From the IMG/VR virus record IMGVR_UViG_3300022658_000318, positions 1 to 27,225 of that record: 27,225 bases of DNA. The stretch is one strand, 5' to 3'. Numbering within the stretch: position 1 is the stretch's first letter; each line of letters begins with the position of its first letter. Under the pieces are notes generated by a model. That model worked only from the letters and a program-made list of their open reading frames with translations. It was not told where the DNA came from and did not search any database. Of the stretch, positions 6,817 through 18,991 are shown one piece after another. Position numbers and translations under genes: made by a program. The DNA comes from a virus.

Positions 6817-8091
6817 TTACCGGTTGAAGATGTTGAGCTGAGTCCTGTGCGCCGAGGTCGGCTTCACGATGGGCCAGCGGAAATGAATCAAGTAGCCCAG
6901 TGCGTCCGGGCCGTGGTCCTTGCCGTCGCTCTTGTCCGGCTCGCCGTTCGGGTCGTAGATCTGCTGCTCCAGGCATTCGGTGATGGTCGGAGCCAATGCC
7001 GTGTTGATCAGCAGCCTGCGCTCGCCTGCCGCATTGCAGATCAGGCCGTTGACCGCCATCACCCGCTCCTTGACGAACGGGTTCTTGCTTGGCACGTGCA
7101 CGGTGAAGCCGGCGCGCTTGAGCAGCAGGATGTCGCTCTCGGTGGCGTTGACCGTCTTGTTGCTCTGTCCGCTGGCGTCGGGGTAGATGTTGATCCGGTG
7201 GCCCGGGAACTTCTCCTTGATCGTCTCGATGACGTGCGGCGTGTCGCGCATCTTGGTCAACTCGCCCAGGATCTTGGGCGCACCGAACCGGATCACACCC
7301 ACCGCTGCCGTGCAGTTGTAGACGTTGAAGTCCAGGCCGATATGCAGCTCCTCACCTTCGACGATCACCTCGGGGGTGTGGTTCTTCGCCCGATCGAAAT
7401 CAGGGTAGACCGCGCCCGACGTCAAGTTGACGAACTGGCCCTCCAGGTAGGCCGCGATCAGCTGCGACGGATACGAGCGCTTGAGCGACTCGATGTACCC
7501 GGCGGGCAGGTTGCGGGAGTTGCTGTAGGTGCTCGCCCGGATCAGGCGGTAGCCTTCCTCGGGGTTCTTGGCCCAGCGGTCGTAGACGAAGCGAAAGCCT
7601 TCCGGCGTCGTGGCCACGCCGACCGTGTTGAGCGATCCGTCCGGCTTCTTCTGCCGGTTACGTGCGATGACCTGGCGCCACGCGTACTCTGCGTCGGCCT
7701 GCTTGAGGGTGTCCAGCTCGTCGACGATGCTGTCAGCCACTTCGTAGCCAACGATGCGCGCTGGGTTGTCCAGCGTGCGGAAGATGATCTTGCCCTTGCC
7801 GTTGATCGACAGGACGTGATCTGACTGGTTGAGCCGGTACTTGACCTTGGCATTGCCCAGCGTCTCTTCGAAGCGGGGGTAGCCAATCATGCGCACCAGG
7901 TCGTAGGTGGGCAGGTAGTAGGCGATGTTCTGCTTGGGGTAAGCGAACTTCAGGCGCAGGGCGCGCATGATCGCCGCCTGGGTCTTGCCAGAGCCGAAGC
8001 CGGCCACCATGGCCGGGAACTGATCGTGCGAGTTGATGAATTCCGTCTGAGGTACGCTGGCCCGGCTCTTGAGTCGGACCTTAGTCGTCAT
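6817..8091 (-). CDS. Terminase large subunit (packaging ATPase/nuclease)
   Basis: A 424-aa two-domain motor. The ATPase domain has Walker A GFGSGKT at residues 31-37, Walker B ending in VDE (D124/E125), and a coupling motif around TTPEG (residues 161-165). The RNase-H-like nuclease domain has acidic residues in IGLDFN (D254), YPDAS (D305) and HGPDALGY (D396). Together these cut concatemers and drive DNA into the prohead through the portal. Its start overlaps the end of the small-subunit gene by 11 bp. All expected motifs are intact. Confidence 0.93.
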   Translation of the reverse strand: MTTKVRLKSRASVPQTEFINSHDQFPAMVAGFGSGKTQAAIMRALRLKFAYPKQNIAYYLPTYDLVRMIGYPRFEETLGNAKVKYRLNQSDHVLSINGKGKIIFRTLDNPARIVGYEVADSIVDELDTLKQADAEYAWRQVIARNRQKKPDGSLNTVGVATTPEGFRFVYDRWAKNPEEGYRLIRASTYSNSRNLPAGYIESLKRSYPSQLIAAYLEGQFVNLTSGAVYPDFDRAKNHTPEVIVEGEELHIGLDFNVYNCTAAVGVIRFGAPKILGELTKMRDTPHVIETIKEKFPGHRINIYPDASGQSNKTVNATESDILLLKRAGFTVHVPSKNPFVKERVMAVNGLICNAAGERRLLINTALAPTITECLEQQIYDPNGEPDKSDGKDHGPDALGYLIHFRWPIVKPTSAHRTQLNIFNR

Positions 8092-9628: not shown

Positions 9629-10230
9629 CGGGCCTCCTGGGTTTGGGACTTCTTCAGTTGCTTGGCTTTTTCTCGGTAAAGGGTGCGGATCGCTCGCAGC
9701 TCGTCGGCGGTCCATTTGTGGGGGGTGTTGTCGGATTCGAGAGCCAGCACACGCTCCAGTCCGATTCGGGCAATGAGGCCGATGCGGTAATCGACGGCTC
9801 GGCCAGCTCCGTACCGGTTGCATTGCTTTCGCTGGGCGTGGCAGTTGTCCTCGTTGAAACGCAGATGACCTGCCGACCCTCTGGATCGGTAATGGCCTGC
9901 ATCAGCACTGCCCCCCAGCTCTGTGCTTCGAAAAGGACGGCCGCAGCAAATGCAGGGCAGTCCGGCATCACGTAATCGGATGTAGGCATTGAATTCGTCC
10001 TGCGCCTCTTTGATCAGCTGGGGAATGGTCTTGATGGCTTCCTTGCGCTTGGCGAGCTTTTCGCGTGCCGCCGACTTCTCTGCCTTCAGCTTCGATCGCT
10101 CAGCGGCCTTGTCGGCCTTGACCTTCTTGGTGGCGCACTTCGGTGAGCACACCGCCTGGAGGGGGCGGGCAGGAACGAAGAGGGTGGCGCACTGCTTGCA
10201 CGGCCGAGGCTTCGGGTTGAAAGGGGTCAT
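9625..10230 (-). CDS. ninG: NinG-like recombination protein
   Basis: A 201-aa protein starting at ATG 10230 (TGATG overlap with the preceding gene). It has an N-terminal zinc-finger-like CKQCATLF...CSPKCATKK, a highly charged Lys/Glu/Ala helix (residues about 35-80), then YIRLRDAGLPCICCGRPF, SADAGHYRSRGSAGHLRFNE and NCHAQRKQCNRYGAG. These are hallmarks of lambda NinG (Rap), a structure-specific endonuclease that acts on recombination intermediates. The lambda order ninG then Q is kept. Confidence 0.9.
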   Translation of the reverse strand: MTPFNPKPRPCKQCATLFVPARPLQAVCSPKCATKKVKADKAAERSKLKAEKSAAREKLAKRKEAIKTIPQLIKEAQDEFNAYIRLRDAGLPCICCGRPFRSTELGGSADAGHYRSRGSAGHLRFNEDNCHAQRKQCNRYGAGRAVDYRIGLIARIGLERVLALESDNTPHKWTADELRAIRTLYREKAKQLKKSQTQEAR

Positions 10231-10565
10231 CACTGGGTGGCCCTCCCTTCAGCGCGGGCGGTGGCTTCCTGGCTGCGCCAGATCTCGACGCGGGCCTGGG
10301 CGGCAACCAGATCCCAGCGCAGCTTCTCCTCGACCTCGATGGCAGCTCGGATACCCTCCAACACGGCGATGTAGTCCGGGTGGCTGTAGGCGAACTGCTC
10401 GCGGGCGCTCACCGCCTTCTCCGGGCTTTCGTTCATGAGCAAGGCCTTCTTGGACTTGCGGAATTCCTCCAGGTAGACCCGGTCGGCCTTGGCCTTGGCG
10501 AACTTGGAGGCGTGAGCGATGATGAAATCGACGGCCTTGTTTGGATTGATGGCGCGATTCGTCAC
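10230..10565 (-). CDS. Phage protein of unknown function upstream of ninG
   Basis: A 111-aa mainly helical, charged protein (NKAVDFIIAHASKFAKAKAD; YLEEFRKSKKALLMNESPEK; AIEVEEKLRWDLVAAQARVE) ending in ATARAEGRATQ. The pattern is one I associate with small nin-region proteins in many temperate phages; no function is known to me. It is translationally coupled to ninG by a TGATG overlap. Confidence 0.7.
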   Translation of the reverse strand: MTNRAINPNKAVDFIIAHASKFAKAKADRVYLEEFRKSKKALLMNESPEKAVSAREQFAYSHPDYIAVLEGIRAAIEVEEKLRWDLVAAQARVEIWRSQEATARAEGRATQ

Positions 10566-13523: not shown

Positions 13524-13650
13524 TCTGTGCGTAACACTTGCAATCCCAAGCAGTCACCCATTGGTTACAAGTCTCGCAATACGCCTCCCCCAAACCGTGC
13601 CAGAGAGCCTGAGGGTGCGCCGGGCAGCTCTTGTGGTGCCGCATCGACAT
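13282..13650 (-). CDS. Small Cys-rich protein after cro (conflicts with antisense gene)
   Basis: A 122-aa frame whose ATG overlaps the Cro-like stop (TGATG), so it would be translationally coupled to it. Its first about 45 residues look like a real zinc-binding protein (CPAHPQALWHGLG; YCETCNQWVTAWDCKCYAQ). The remaining part overlaps the 13182-13523 plus-strand gene, with less natural composition. The true gene may have lost its original C-terminus or may be a fusion with read-through sequence. Only one of the two overlapping frames may be expressed. Confidence 0.4.
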   Translation of the reverse strand: MSMRHHKSCPAHPQALWHGLGEAYCETCNQWVTAWDCKCYAQISPRKEPGRYLAAYVVVSVAWLPIWPTRIKRRFFWELQSRLLGTAKYASIHPQPAGCLGIAPCVNPTPGKQGQGRQESDR

Positions 13651-13859
13651 CACATCCCCTCTTGAGCAGTGGGGCGATGCTTTGCGCATTTGCGGTGGAG
13701 CGACAGAAGCGCATGAGCCAGAGTGAATCTAGGCTCCTTTGTCGCTCCAGTAGCGAGGTCGCTGATGCTCGACTGCGAGCAGCCGACCTTGGCCGCAATC
13801 TGTGGTTGAGTCAGCTGGCCCCGCTGTTGGATGTCAGAGATGATGATTTTCCAGTCCAT
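13650..13859 (-). CDS. cro: Cro-like repressor
   Basis: A 69-aa helix-turn-helix protein (MDWKIIISDIQQRGQLTQPQ; IAAKVGCSQSSISDLATG). It is divergent from the CI-like gene, as Cro is, and would favour lytic growth by binding the shared operators. No ribosome site precedes the ATG at 13859, and the predicted promoter puts the transcript start at about this base, so the message may be leaderless. A TTG at 13880 is possible but lies inside the promoter. Confidence 0.8.
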   Translation of the reverse strand: MDWKIIISDIQQRGQLTQPQIAAKVGCSQSSISDLATGATKEPRFTLAHALLSLHRKCAKHRPTAQEGM

Positions 13860-13866
13860 GGCGTCG

Positions 13867-13895
13867 ATAATATCGGACAACCGTTATTTTATCAA
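13867..13895 (-). promoter_or_regulatory. pR-like promoter for cro with embedded operator
   Basis: Read on the minus strand: TTGATA (13895-13890), 17 bp, TATTAT (13872-13867), close to sigma70 consensus. The spacer holds an operator copy, AAATAACGG-TTGT-CCGAT, a partial palindrome at about 13871-13889. The same motif occurs twice at the promoter at 16625. Transcription would begin close to the cro ATG. Confidence 0.8.
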
Positions 13896-13932: not shown

Positions 13933-14424
13933 ATGGCTACTGAATACGGTGCAAGGCTACGAGCTGCCAGGAAGCATGCAGGCTTGACGCAGGTGCAAGC
14001 CCAAAAGGCTACGGGCATCCCTCAAAGCACGATCTCCACGGCGGAACGGGAGGGTCATGGCTCTGCTGACACCCCGGTGTATGCCAAGGCTTACGGTGTT
14101 GACGCGCACTGGCTTGCCACTGGTGAGGGTCAAATGGCCCCCCAGTCTAAGTTTCTGCCTGGCATGGGAATCGAAAATTTGGAGTTTTCGCAGCCTGAAG
14201 ATGTAGTCGGTGCGCCCAAGCAGGCAACAGTAAGCGAAACCATCAGCAGCCTTGGCGAGTTTCTTTCGACCGCCACGGAGCAGACGAGGGCGGCTGTCGC
14301 AGACCTTCTCAGCCGCTACGCCCAGGATCCATCTGGAGGGAAGGCTATTGCTCAGGCGATCGTGCTGCTGATCAACGCTGACAGGGAGAACAAAAAAGAC
14401 CATGATCCCTCCGCTAGACAGTAG
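13933..14424 (+). CDS. CI-like repressor without a visible S24 peptidase domain
   Basis: A 163-aa protein from the ATG at 13933. The N-terminal helix-turn-helix (ARLRAARKHAGLTQVQAQKA; TGIPQSTISTAEREG, residues about 7-40) is a typical lambda/434-type repressor domain and continues with YAKAYGVDAHWLATGEG. The C-terminal about 90 residues are helical (ISSLGEFLSTATEQTRAAVA) and show no Ser/Lys autocleavage motif. So RecA-stimulated self-cleavage is unlikely, and induction would need another route. The frame continues upstream to 13831 but without a start signal. No ribosome site is seen. Its end overlaps the next gene by 23 bp, tying that gene to repressor expression. Confidence 0.85.
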   Translation: MATEYGARLRAARKHAGLTQVQAQKATGIPQSTISTAEREGHGSADTPVYAKAYGVDAHWLATGEGQMAPQSKFLPGMGIENLEFSQPEDVVGAPKQATVSETISSLGEFLSTATEQTRAAVADLLSRYAQDPSGGKAIAQAIVLLINADRENKKDHDPSARQ

Positions 14425-14875
14425 GGGCCTGTTGCCTCAAGGCCGACACCCCTGCACTGACTGGGATGAGCTGGAATTCCACTTCGGCACAAACGATTAC
14501 CGTGTTAGTCTCCTGACTAGGGCCAAGGAGTTCGTTCGTGACCGCCTCACACCTATCGGGTCTGGACTTGAGTTGGTGGTCGGCGGGAGCTTCTTGACCG
14601 ACAAAGCTTGCCCTGGGGATATTGACATCGTGGTCATCATCCCGATCAAAGACGTCGTGAAGTACTCGCAAGTGCTTACGATGTTCGCAACGGAAGGTGC
14701 AAAAGGGCCTATATGGGAAGAGTACAAAGTCGAGTTTTATGTGCAACTTGACGGTGCGGGTAACAGCCTTGCATTATTTTTCGAATACGTGGGAGAAAAA
14801 AGCGCCGAAGCAAAGGGGTTGAGCCCCAAAGACAAGCGTGGCACTGTTGGAATCGAATCATGGACACTTGGGTAA
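14402..14875 (+). CDS. Nucleotidyltransferase-fold protein (DUF6932-like), putative moron
   Basis: A 157-aa protein. Residues 61-75 carry the nucleotidyltransferase signature GGSFLTDKACPGDID, with G62/S63 and the metal-binding pair D73-x-D75; E111 in the strand KVEFYV is a good third acidic residue. The C-terminus KDKRGTVGIESW resembles the end of DUF6932 proteins, a family I place in the MNT-like nucleotidyltransferase group. Such enzymes modify a partner, a tRNA or another RNA, or make signalling nucleotides; which applies here is unknown. It overlaps the repressor gene upstream and its 332-aa partner downstream (16 bp), so it should be expressed in the lysogen. It could be the catalytic part of a toxin-antitoxin or defence pair. 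Confidence 0.7.
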   Translation: MIPPLDSRGLLPQGRHPCTDWDELEFHFGTNDYRVSLLTRAKEFVRDRLTPIGSGLELVVGGSFLTDKACPGDIDIVVIIPIKDVVKYSQVLTMFATEGAKGPIWEEYKVEFYVQLDGAGNSLALFFEYVGEKSAEAKGLSPKDKRGTVGIESWTLG

Positions 14876-15858
14876 AAGCACTTCACAGCCGAGCCGCAAT
14901 ACTGCAGCAGCAGATCGCGTTGGCCATGGACGCCCAACGCACCCAGAGCGTCGATATGACGGGCTTCATCGAGGCATATCAACAATCGCTTCAGAAGATC
15001 TACAGTGAAGATCTGCCGCTGGCGATGCTCAAAGACACCAGCGACATCATTCTTCACGCAGAAGGTCCCGCTGCACGCCACCACGCAGCAGGCAGCGCTA
15101 TGGTGTCTTGGCTTTGTGGAGAAGCGGAGAGGCGCATTCGTCAACTTGGTATGGCAGCCCTCAAGCTAACCGGCAAGACGGCTGATGCTGCCGAACAAGA
15201 CCTTCGTGTTCTGTTGAATGGACTTGCTCCTGGCAGCTTGTATTTGGGATTTTCGGTCGACTCAGCTCAGAGAATGGCCGAAAGTCAAGAAGAACTTCAA
15301 ATTTTTGATGGTGAAACAGGTACGTTAGACGCCATTCGAGATGCTGTACGAATGCTTCCTCTAGTACAGAAGTTTGTTGGTGATGAATCCATTAATACTG
15401 AAATTGTTGAGGTCATCAATGATCCTGTCGTGCGAGATGCGTCTTTGATGGCGGCCTATCATTTATCACCAACAGGCAGGAGAGGCATCCACACGATTGA
15501 AATTAGTGCGCCAGGTTCGAAGGAAAGAGCTGGGGCTTATACGAATCGTGAACGGGTTGTGCTCCGCGAGAGCGCAATGCGCTCACCTGTCATGCGACAG
15601 GTCAAATCTGGCATCTTTGTAGGCGAGCTGCGAGAGGTAGATCTAGACGCCAAGAGATTCCATCTTCGAGAAGTGCCTCAGATCGGCAGTATTCGATGTG
15701 TGCTCGGAGACTTGAATGCTGATACTGCTCGAAAATTGATCGGTCATGGTGTCCGGGTCACGGGACCCTATGAGTCTGACGAGCTTGGTCGTCCACGTCT
15801 TATGCGGGTAGAGACGGTTGAGCCATACCAAATTCAATCTTCAATAATAAGTAATTAA
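14860..15858 (+). CDS. Partner protein of the nucleotidyltransferase, unknown function
   Basis: A 332-aa protein. The N-terminal about 120 residues are helical (VKALHSRAAILQQQIALAMD; LLNGLAPGSLYLGFSVDSAQ follows). The middle contains a regular helix/strand segment (ETGTLDAIRDAVRMLPLVQK; GIHTIEISAPG). The last about 75 residues form a small beta-barrel-like region (FVGELREVDLDAKRFHLREV; SIRCVLGDLNADTARKLIGH; GVRVTGPYESDELGRPRLM). I know this kind of C-terminal barrel from uncharacterised defence-type proteins but cannot name a family surely. No HEPN R-x4-6-H motif is present. Its codons are more A+T-rich than those of the structural genes, which suggests acquisition. The 16-bp overlap with the nucleotidyltransferase gene points to a functional pair. 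Confidence 0.65.
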   Translation: MDTWVKALHSRAAILQQQIALAMDAQRTQSVDMTGFIEAYQQSLQKIYSEDLPLAMLKDTSDIILHAEGPAARHHAAGSAMVSWLCGEAERRIRQLGMAALKLTGKTADAAEQDLRVLLNGLAPGSLYLGFSVDSAQRMAESQEELQIFDGETGTLDAIRDAVRMLPLVQKFVGDESINTEIVEVINDPVVRDASLMAAYHLSPTGRRGIHTIEISAPGSKERAGAYTNRERVVLRESAMRSPVMRQVKSGIFVGELREVDLDAKRFHLREVPQIGSIRCVLGDLNADTARKLIGHGVRVTGPYESDELGRPRLMRVETVEPYQIQSSIISN

Positions 15859-16555: not shown

Positions 16556-16610
16556 GCTTGTTCGGAGCACCGAGCAACGGCGCACAAAAAAACCTAGTGC
16601 ACCACAAAAA

Positions 16611-16653
16611 ATAACGGAAAACCGTTGACACGAAATAACGGAACACCGATACT
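16611..16653 (+). promoter_or_regulatory. Early (pL-like) promoter with two operator copies
   Basis: TTGACA (16625-16630), 17 bp, GATACT (16648-16653), close to sigma70 consensus. Operator copies of the form ATAACGG-N4-CCG(T/A)T lie at 16611-16626 (overlapping the -35) and 16635-16650 (in the spacer). The same motif is in the cro promoter. A repressor bound here would block polymerase. Transcription should start near 16660 and read into the early genes. Confidence 0.85.
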
Positions 16654-16659
16654 GCACCC

Positions 16660-17404
16660 AGGCCCAAGCGAAAGCGAGGCTAGGGTGATCGGACCCGAGA
16701 GAGGCTCCTTAACAAGCAAGAACCAGCAGGCCACGCAGTCCGTGAGGAGAGTTTGCTGACCATCCAGGCGTCCGATGAATTTCCGGGTAGCGCTTGGTAG
16801 GCCTGGAGCCCGCGCCAAGCGGGGAGAAGTCAGGCCGACGCCCGAGGGGGCGTAGACATCCAAAGCCAGTTCTTGCGAGCGGGCTTTGGAGATCAGCCTG
16901 TCGGGCAATTCCGCCCACTTTCTGCCGAAACACACAAGGCAGGCTGATCAACCAAAAGGCTGGATGACTTCGATCCTTCAAGACGGCCTCTAAATGTCCA
17001 CGAAGGCTGTCACTCGACAGGCGACCGGTCCTGGGCGGGCTTTGCGATTGAGCCAGATCACAGAGTGCGGTGGACACCGGCCAACAGGTCCTGACACCCC
17101 GGAAAGACGGGGACCATCACACATGCGGATTGGTGCAAGCATGGTGGACTTGCGAGAGGGACGCCCAATCCCAACAGTCCGCAGTTGTGATGGTCTGCAC
17201 ATGACTGGATGCCCTGGCGTCACGAACGAGCAGGCGGCAGACAGACCTGTGACGGCGCGGCGCGGTCGTTCTGACCAAGCGGCCTATGGAATGCAGCCCG
17301 GCAAATGCTGAAGGTAGCCTGCAGACCATCAACCCGTTTCCTCCCTGATGATCCCTTGAGGATCTTTCGCCCCCAGTGCTTCACGGTGCTGGGGGCTTTT
17401 CTTT
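16660..17404 (+). ncRNA. Putative large structured phage RNA or leader (about 745 nt)
   Basis: Between the promoter and the terminator there is no credible gene. There are many perfect helices: CCAGGC/GCCTGG (16764-16769 with 16801-16806), CCCGC/GCGGG (16809-16823), ACGCCC-GAGG-GGGCGT (16838-16853), CCAAAGCC/GGCTTTGG (16860-16867 with 16882-16889), GATCAGCCTG/CAGGCTGATC (16891-16900 with 16940-16949), CTGTC/GACAG (17007-17020), CCCCG/CGGGG (17097-17112), GGATTGG/CCAATCC (17127-17133 with 17165-17171), and a 12-bp pairing 17188-17199 with 17320-17331. Neighbouring hairpins abut within a few bases. The simplest reading is one long structured RNA or an antitermination leader. Known giant phage RNAs (GOLLD, ROOL) have similar size, but no relation is shown here. 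Confidence 0.65.
17369..17404 (+). terminator. Intrinsic terminator at the end of the structured leader
   Basis: GCCCCCAG (17369-17376) pairs with CTGGGGGC (17389-17396), followed by TTTTCTTT. A smaller GATCC/GGATC hairpin (17350-17364) sits just before it. It ends immediately before the GGAG ribosome site of the first early gene, so early-gene expression would need read-through or antitermination. Confidence 0.85.
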
Positions 17405-17414
17405 GGAGCCTGTC

Positions 17415-17723
17415 ATGCATCCCCTAGACCCTGAGAACTGCGGATTTACCGGCGTACTGAGCACCACGATGCACCTGGGTAACGGGGATGCATTAGTGGT
17501 TGTCACCCGTCACTACTTTATGGACGAGGCAAACAAAGACCAAGACGAAGTGGTGATGAACGGAAAGACCGTGACACCGCTGATGAACGATGGCCACTGG
17601 GCAGCGATTGATCGGCACTTTGAGAACAACTGGGCAGCTATCAAGGATGAGAACCGGGTAGCTCAGGAATGTTTGTATGACGAGTGGCTTGATGGCCGAA
17701 ATGAATGGAGGCAAGCAGCATGA
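17415..17723 (+). CDS. First early protein, unknown function
   Basis: A 102-aa protein from the ATG at 17415, with GGAG 6 bases upstream; the frame extends further up only through the terminator stem. It has a beta-rich N-terminus (CGFTGVLSTTMHLGNGDALV) and an acidic helical C-terminus (RHFENNWAAIKDENRVAQEC). No family recognised. Its stop overlaps the next ATG. Confidence 0.65.
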   Translation: MHPLDPENCGFTGVLSTTMHLGNGDALVVVTRHYFMDEANKDQDEVVMNGKTVTPLMNDGHWAAIDRHFENNWAAIKDENRVAQECLYDEWLDGRNEWRQAA

Positions 17724-18319: not shown

Positions 18320-18991
18320 ATGAAAGTCTACCAATCCATAAACGCTGTGCAAACCGACCTGTCAAAGATCGGTATCGCCAAAGACTCAACAAACACCTAC
18401 GACAAGTACAACTTTCGCGGCATTGACGCGGTTTACAACGTACTGTCTCCCCTGCTCGCCAAGCATGGTTTGTGCATCCTGCCACGGATGGTTTCCCGCA
18501 CCTGTGAAGAGCACACATCCCAAAAAGGTGGCGTTCTGTTCTACGTGACCGTAGAGGCTGAGTTTGATTTCGTCAGTGCTGAAGACGGATCAAAGCATAC
18601 GGTCAAAACGTTTGGCGAAGCGATGGATCGTGGCGACAAGGCGACCAACAAGGCCATGTCTGCGGCCTACAAATACGCCTGCTTCCAAGCGTTCGCCATC
18701 CCGACTGAAGGCGACAACGACGCAGACGCCACGACACACGAAGTCGCCGCAAAGCCCATCAAGCATTCCCCAGTGCCTGACATTGACCTGCCAGCAGCAG
18801 ATGCAGAGCGCATTCAAGACCTCGTGACGGACATCGTTCTGTGCTTTGAAGAAGGCAAGGAACTAGAAGCTCTGTCGGTCTACTACGACGCAATCACGGA
18901 CAACGATCACAAGGTGTACGCCTGGAAGCTCCTGGCACCGCACTCAAAGATCCGTTCCTTCCTAAAAGCTAACAAGCCTCAACACGCCTAA
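18320..18991 (+). CDS. ERF-family single-strand annealing recombinase
   Basis: A 223-aa protein with the ERF signature: VYQSINAVQTDLSKIGIAKD, then YDKYNFRGIDAVYNVLSPLL, LFYVTVEAEFDFVSAEDGSK and GEAMDRGDKATNKAMSAAYK with YACFQAFAIPTEGD. ERF proteins (P22 Erf-like) anneal complementary single strands in phage recombination and genome circularisation. The C-terminal part is a separate, less conserved tail. Ribosome site AGGGA precedes ATG 18320. Length is near the family norm. Confidence 0.93.
   Translation: MKVYQSINAVQTDLSKIGIAKDSTNTYDKYNFRGIDAVYNVLSPLLAKHGLCILPRMVSRTCEEHTSQKGGVLFYVTVEAEFDFVSAEDGSKHTVKTFGEAMDRGDKATNKAMSAAYKYACFQAFAIPTEGDNDADATTHEVAAKPIKHSPVPDIDLPAADAERIQDLVTDIVLCFEEGKELEALSVYYDAITDNDHKVYAWKLLAPHSKIRSFLKANKPQHA

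Follow-up and report, generated by a model that had tools for sequence, protein, structure and literature searches.

A covarying pseudoknot and modular arms point to an uncatalogued family of large structured RNAs in phages

Comparison with relatives strongly supports placing a 745-nt region downstream of a repressor-type promoter in a family of large structured phage RNAs that had not been catalogued before and is absent from Rfam. The region lies in the window, by which we mean the whole 27,225-nt stretch of viral DNA that was analyzed (IMG/VR record IMGVR_UViG_3300022658_000318). Across relatives, the comparison reveals a conserved pseudoknot, modular arms, an association with tRNAs, a single copy per record, and non-coding character, so that the large ornate phage RNA proposed in a preliminary description of this DNA now has strong support. 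The features of the region are collected in Table 1.

Table 1. Features of the RNA region and its flanks (positions in the window)
Feature	Position	Strand	Basis
Repressor-type promoter with two operator-like repeats AATAACGGAANACCG	16610..16653	+	Related site at 13869-13888
Large structured non-coding RNA	16660..17404	+	Fold z -3.13, no Rfam match, two ORFs without homologues
Two stacked hairpin arms 5' of core	16858..16950	+	MFE and centroid; predicted, thermodynamic only
Conserved H-type pseudoknot core, model R1	16954..17015	+	cmsearch 69.2 bits, E 7e-15 (window sequence itself included in model R1)
Stem 1, 5' strand AGGC	16957..16960	+	Pairs with 16986-16989 GCCT; covariation
Loop 1 UGGAUGACU, nearly invariant	16961..16969	+	Alignment; partly required by search pattern
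Stem 2, 5' strand CCUUC	16975..16979	+	Pairs with 17002-17006 GAAGG; covariation
Loop 2 AAGACG	16980..16985	+	Alignment
Stem 1, 3' strand GCCU	16986..16989	+	Decomposition of sequences and covariation
Loop 3 CUAAAUGUCCAC, conserved AAAUGUC	16990..17001	+	Alignment; partly required by search pattern
Stem 2, 3' strand GAAGG	17002..17006	+	Decomposition of sequences and covariation
Hairpin CCCCG-GAAAGA-CGGGG, second conserved element, covarying stem	17097..17112	+	Comparison with relatives
Arm with closing helix X 17112-17121/X' 17186-17195, 10 bp	17112..17195	+	MFE/centroid; equivalent arm position in relatives
X' strand TGATGGTCTGCA, common to two mutually exclusive helices	17188..17199	+	Alternative partner X2, 12 bp
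X2 strand TGCAGACCATCA	17320..17331	+	Pairs with TGATGGTCTGCA 17188-17199, exact 12 bp
Intrinsic terminator	17369..17404	+	17369-17396 hairpin, 12 pairs, and T-tract
First downstream gene, 102 aa, without family	17415..17723	+	Start 11 nt past terminator

The near-consensus promoter and the intrinsic terminator claimed in the preliminary description are both present, the former (16625-16653) as TTGACA-17-GATACT with a 10/12 match to the consensus. That description also called the promoter CI-controlled. Two exact copies of AATAACGGAANACCG (16610-16624 and 16634-16648) both overlap the promoter, and a third copy, with 2 mismatches, occurs in the gap between cro and the gene for the CI-like repressor; because this operator-like site resembles those at the RNA promoter, we reasonably infer that the CI-like repressor controls transcription of the RNA. 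The gene context, assigned with Pfam and PHROGs, comprises a Cro-like helix-turn-helix protein (13650-13880, minus strand), the CI-like repressor (from ∼13936, plus strand), and, in the operon downstream of the RNA, an Erf recombinase (18320-18991), and it places the RNA at the λ pL position. The 11 nt between the terminator and the first downstream gene leave no room for that gene to have a promoter of its own, so it must be expressed by read-through or from a promoter within the RNA. Directly 3' of the repressor gene (14402-15858), a DUF6932 gene resembling nucleotidyltransferases is accompanied by a 332-aa gene without a family; the two may form a pair expressed in lysogeny, of the defence or moron kind.

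The 745-nt strand has a predicted folding energy of -324 kcal/mol, compared with -291.7 ± 10.3 kcal/mol for 20 dinucleotide shuffles (z -3.13), and it folds more stably than all 20. For its central 478 nt (16858-17335) the z value is -3.88, and 0 of 100 shuffles were as low. ORFs of up to 122 aa occur inside 16660-17404, and tblastn against 50,697 phage records returned no match for those at 16994-17311 (plus strand) and 16709-17077 (minus strand). In relatives, almost no frame of the conserved block is free of stops, and their spacers between conserved bases differ in length by numbers that are not multiples of 3. A protein-coding reading was rejected on these grounds, which bears out the earlier judgment that the region holds no credible gene; conservation of homologous regions as protein, named beforehand as a result that would count against an RNA, was looked for and was not what the relatives showed. 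An Rfam search of the window at gathering and permissive thresholds returned no family, GOLLD, ROOL, and OLE included. Sub-cut-off matches (anti-hemB on the terminator hairpin, BTnc231, and others) were set aside as chance or generic terminator likeness.

When the region was compared by blastn with the 50,697 phage records, only ∼51 nt matched, in nine records of five N4-like phages (Pokken, Paxi, Piffle, PB119, and RiverRider), where the matches lie within tRNA arrays in DNA mostly without annotated genes. Successive patterns built on this match recovered 6, then 18, then 66 IMG/VR contigs. We aligned 58 distinct sequences after removing duplicates, two coding-like matches judged false since their stems do not form (L038 and L055), and one aberrant locus (L047). 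The aligned cores come from temperate phages, N4-like phages, and an E. coli prophage. The core is at the pL position behind a repressor gene in the window, in L008, L010, and L053, and in the E. coli prophage at icd; in N4-like phages, it sits behind tRNA-Gln or, in PB119, an annotated tRNA-His, and mostly ahead of tRNA-Arg. Each of 28 phage records, many of which may be fragments, has one copy of the core (28/28); one phage record gave two extra matches of ∼16 bits, near chance.

Searches beyond these records gave few members. The window region had no match in the plasmid collection, the first exact pattern none in viral contigs, and the strict pattern none in GTDB genomes; a second pattern gave five GTDB matches, of which L026 alone is real. 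Since model R1 was found in 0 of 247 bacterial genomes from the family of a Lysobacter genome and in 1 of 398 from its phylum, the RNA belongs mainly to phages and is seldom found in bacterial chromosomes. The open-access literature, a scope that leaves subscription papers and most preprints outside, held no description of the R1 element.

Collecting related phage regions, a check proposed in the preliminary description, yielded covarying pairs in both stems of the core. Members of family R1 have two crossing, covarying stems with the loops UGGAUGACU, AAGACG, and AAAUGUC. Among 54 dereplicated sequences, the second pair of stem 1 is TA in 8, AT in 24, GC in 20, and CG in 2, so that 54/54 are paired compared with a permuted mean of 28.5; pairs 2-5 of this stem contain 184 paired cells (permuted maximum, 146), and stem 2 has 350 paired positions compared with 229 when permuted (maximum, 262). 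In a separate count on a MAFFT alignment, the covariation of stem 2 was 0.432 compared with 0.150 for shuffled sequences (0/500), and it fell to ≤0.134 once the partner strand was slid. Such shuffles do not remove relatedness among the sequences, and the occurrence of four pair types at one position across unrelated contexts is a stronger argument than the shuffles. There are 22 invariant columns in the alignment of 58 sequences, mostly in loops, where invariance is partly by construction as the search patterns require some loop bases; the stems were mostly unconstrained. The GAC of loop 2 may pair with GUC 16996-16998, bases that never vary. Taken as a whole, the comparison strongly supports both a new RNA family and its pseudoknot, which in the window lies mid-RNA, about 300 nt in.

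The core is accompanied by other structured elements. All of the perfect helices named in the preliminary description exist, among them two in the predicted upstream arms (8 bp, 16860-16867/16882-16889; 10 bp, 16891-16900/16940-16949). Within 200 nt 3' of the core, 23 loci have a GAAAGA-type hexaloop hairpin with a covarying stem, whose variants in the window and its relatives include CCCCG/CGGGG, GCCGG/CCGGC, GCCCG/CGGGC, and GATG/CATC. Directly 3' of this hairpin begins an arm, often closed by X and X'. The 12-bp helix noted earlier is exact, with the correction that 17188-17195 also take part in a 10-bp helix: because both use these bases, X:X' (17112-17121/17186-17195) and X':X2 (17188-17199/17320-17331) exclude each other in the window. 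Such X-X'-X2 triples were found at 9 of 19 dereplicated loci, compared with a mean of 1.16 and a maximum of 4 in 300 shuffles, and the X sequence varies by locus (CCATCA, CCAACA, and CACAAC); L079 has additional X and X' copies downstream. These strands may act as a switch, allow exchange between RNA molecules, or be left over from repetition of the arms.

Long arms occur in many members and their order relative to the core varies, one arm module being ahead of the core in L053 and behind it in L079. Four loci (L010, L012, L013, and L024) have a recurrent GCGCAGGCTGATGCGC-type hairpin and a GCCGG-AGATCAGCA-CCGGC-type hairpin whose loops, CTGAT and ATCAG, are complementary; a kissing interaction of these loops between X' and X2 is possible. 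A P1-like plasmid of E. coli CH468 (L080, 4024-5157) has ∼1.1 kb of non-coding DNA ahead of an annotated tRNA-Met that is unusually long (129 nt), and this stretch has an arm module in common with L053.

Genes for tRNAs or tmRNA occur no farther than 1 kb from the core at 16 of 59 loci, always on the same strand (33 genes, compared with 0 on the other strand). Their density is 0.29 per kb near the core and 0.05 per kb elsewhere in those loci, a figure inflated by near relatives among the N4-like phages. Some arms are themselves tRNA-like: those of L013 and L015 score 48.4 and 44.8 bits against Rfam tRNA, L020, L021, and L023 have a tRNA-like arm and are similar in sequence, and the arm of L024 is tRNA-like and more divergent. 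The L013 arm aligns with a shortened anticodon loop and ∼50 nt inserted ahead of the T arm. In the window, ARAGORN and Rfam found no recognizable tRNA or tRNA-like arm, no cloverleaf with an anticodon, and no tmRNA.

Following the arms in common with L018 brought up two phages whose tmRNA genes are permuted. ARAGORN placed such genes in Bordetella phage PHB04 (L084, 2157-2528; tag ANDDYIRAAA), in Alcaligenes phage QDWS595 (L085, 71-447; tag ANDNVYAAAA), and in L063 (1599-2015; tag ANDDSYRPQLRIAA), where the gene starts 240 nt past the pseudoknot core; the annotations shown for PHB04 and QDWS595 omit them. In the stretches fetched from Achromobacter, Alcaligenes, and Bordetella phages with common arms, no core was recognizable. 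Two Achromobacter N4-like phages have a non-coding gap of ∼1 kb with a module common with L018 (L083, 1253-2556; L086, 1638-2645), possibly a sister large RNA, and the phiAxp-3 gap contains a sequence that resembles tRNA-Leu and is odd in its anticodon region. The same phage contig as L018 has an Rfam match to Burkholderiales-2 RNA (7569-7642, 98.9 bits).

As the best explanation of these results, to which we give an even chance as a whole, the family would be a large phage RNA that acts in trans and is GOLLD/ROOL-like without being homologous to either. We infer that transcription of such an RNA would begin early in the lytic cycle or upon induction, at a promoter that the CI-like repressor keeps off, and that the RNA would serve as a scaffold. 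Function or docking would centre on its pseudoknot; its arms would expose surfaces resembling tRNA or bear tRNAs themselves, by which the RNA could engage the translation machinery or protect phage tRNAs; and the mutually exclusive arm helices could switch its state or join it with other copies. Covariation, single copy, independent contexts, same-strand tRNAs, tRNA-like arms, and the mid-RNA core all count for this explanation. So does the arrangement in L008 and L010, where the RNA is roughly 1.6 and 1.1 kb, with promoter-like sequence upstream and a terminator after it, past which we found by eye another possible repressor-type promoter. Against it stand the window member, which is without a tRNA or tRNA-like arm; the window operon's first gene, which needs read-through with no promoter after the terminator; the weakness of the second promoters of L008 and L010 relative to the consensus; and L009, which has only the pseudoknot and a degenerate hairpin directly ahead of a gene and looks cis-acting. 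A fuller version is a tentative proposal: an RNA machine, built as a modular scaffold on the new pseudoknot with anticodon-less tRNA mimics or real tRNAs or tmRNA, would act on the host ribosome or tRNA pool in lytic growth and switch between its two exclusive arm pairings.

The strongest rival to a trans-acting RNA, which we consider unlikely, is a cis-acting processive antiterminator like HK022 put, in which the nascent pseudoknot would modify RNA polymerase for read-through at 17369 and along untranslated stretches into the left operon or tRNA array. In HK022, put is a structured RNA element that opens an early operon and has a terminator behind it, and it is present in two copies, one in each early operon; λ pL is the site of N/nutL. 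The pL location, the first gene lying at once after the terminator, the usefulness of antitermination in long untranslated RNA and tRNA arrays, and the minimal promoter-pseudoknot-gene form of L009 all fit this reading. The preliminary description had allowed for a put-like leader, and what is retained of that idea is the missing room for a promoter ahead of the first gene. It is weakened by the single copy per phage record, where one per early operon would be expected, by a core that in L012 even follows arms and a tRNA gene instead of lying at the 5' end, by the apparently separate promoters past the terminators of L008 and L010, and by the large tRNA-like arms, which it leaves unexplained. 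The new RNA is also far larger than put, and HK022 searched with model R1 gave no significant hit; the top one (10.3 bits, E 0.26) falls among the tail genes at 10193-10277, off the early operons.

Somewhat less probable still, the core could be a small element that cleaves itself or takes part in processing, or a switch that binds a ligand, located by chance in long phage transcripts, where it frees or controls neighboring tRNAs and genes. A compact H-type pseudoknot with its invariant columns concentrated in loops resembles ribozymes and aptamers, tRNAs often lie 100-250 nt downstream, and mutually exclusive helices would suit a switch; against this, we saw no conserved cleavage-site position or expression platform, and in many members the core comes together with the hairpin and arms, so that it is often not free-standing. 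That the stretch is an ordinary untranslated operon leader with chance structure, or an unannotated gene, has its ORFs in its favor and is very improbable, as it is contradicted by covariation, loops conserved in dozens of phages, z values of -3.1 to -3.9, stops in nearly all frames of the conserved block, and the lack of protein homologues.

Returning to the trans-acting RNA, its function is directly testable because members are found in isolated lytic phages (Pokken, Paxi, Piffle, RiverRider, and PB119) and in an E. coli prophage. Like tmRNA and the tRNA-like structures of plant viruses, some relatives (L013, L015, L020, L021, L023, and L024) have a tRNA-like domain without a normal anticodon arm in a larger RNA. 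Unlike tmRNA, the core family has no recognized tag reading frame, the window member has no tRNA-like arm, and the permuted tmRNA genes near related modules in three phages are separate genes. Only a few classes of very large phage RNA are known; GOLLD and ROOL were recently proved to form RNA-only cages, and the roles suggested for them resemble contact with the translation machinery or protection of phage tRNAs. The GOLLD and ROOL models of Rfam had no match in the window or the relatives scanned (thresholds of E up to 10, 10, 1, and 3), and homology to GOLLD, ROOL, or OLE, for which the preliminary description had proposed a search, is absent by the Rfam models. GOLLD is borne by phages and prophages, is many hundreds of nt long, often lies near tRNA islands, sometimes with tRNAs inside, and has a conserved and a variable part, and ROOL is a large phage or prophage RNA near tRNA islands with a complex structure that includes pseudoknots (PMC12286853). 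At the level of the family, with the window itself lacking a tRNA, the new RNA is likewise phage-borne and found near tRNAs, whereas its pseudoknot core is a conserved element other than that of GOLLD; with ROOL, it has in common large size, a phage or prophage home, and the tRNA-island habit, and differs in having no Rfam match. That an unrelated family has the tRNA-island habit of GOLLD and ROOL suggests that phages repeatedly resort to large tRNA-linked RNAs.
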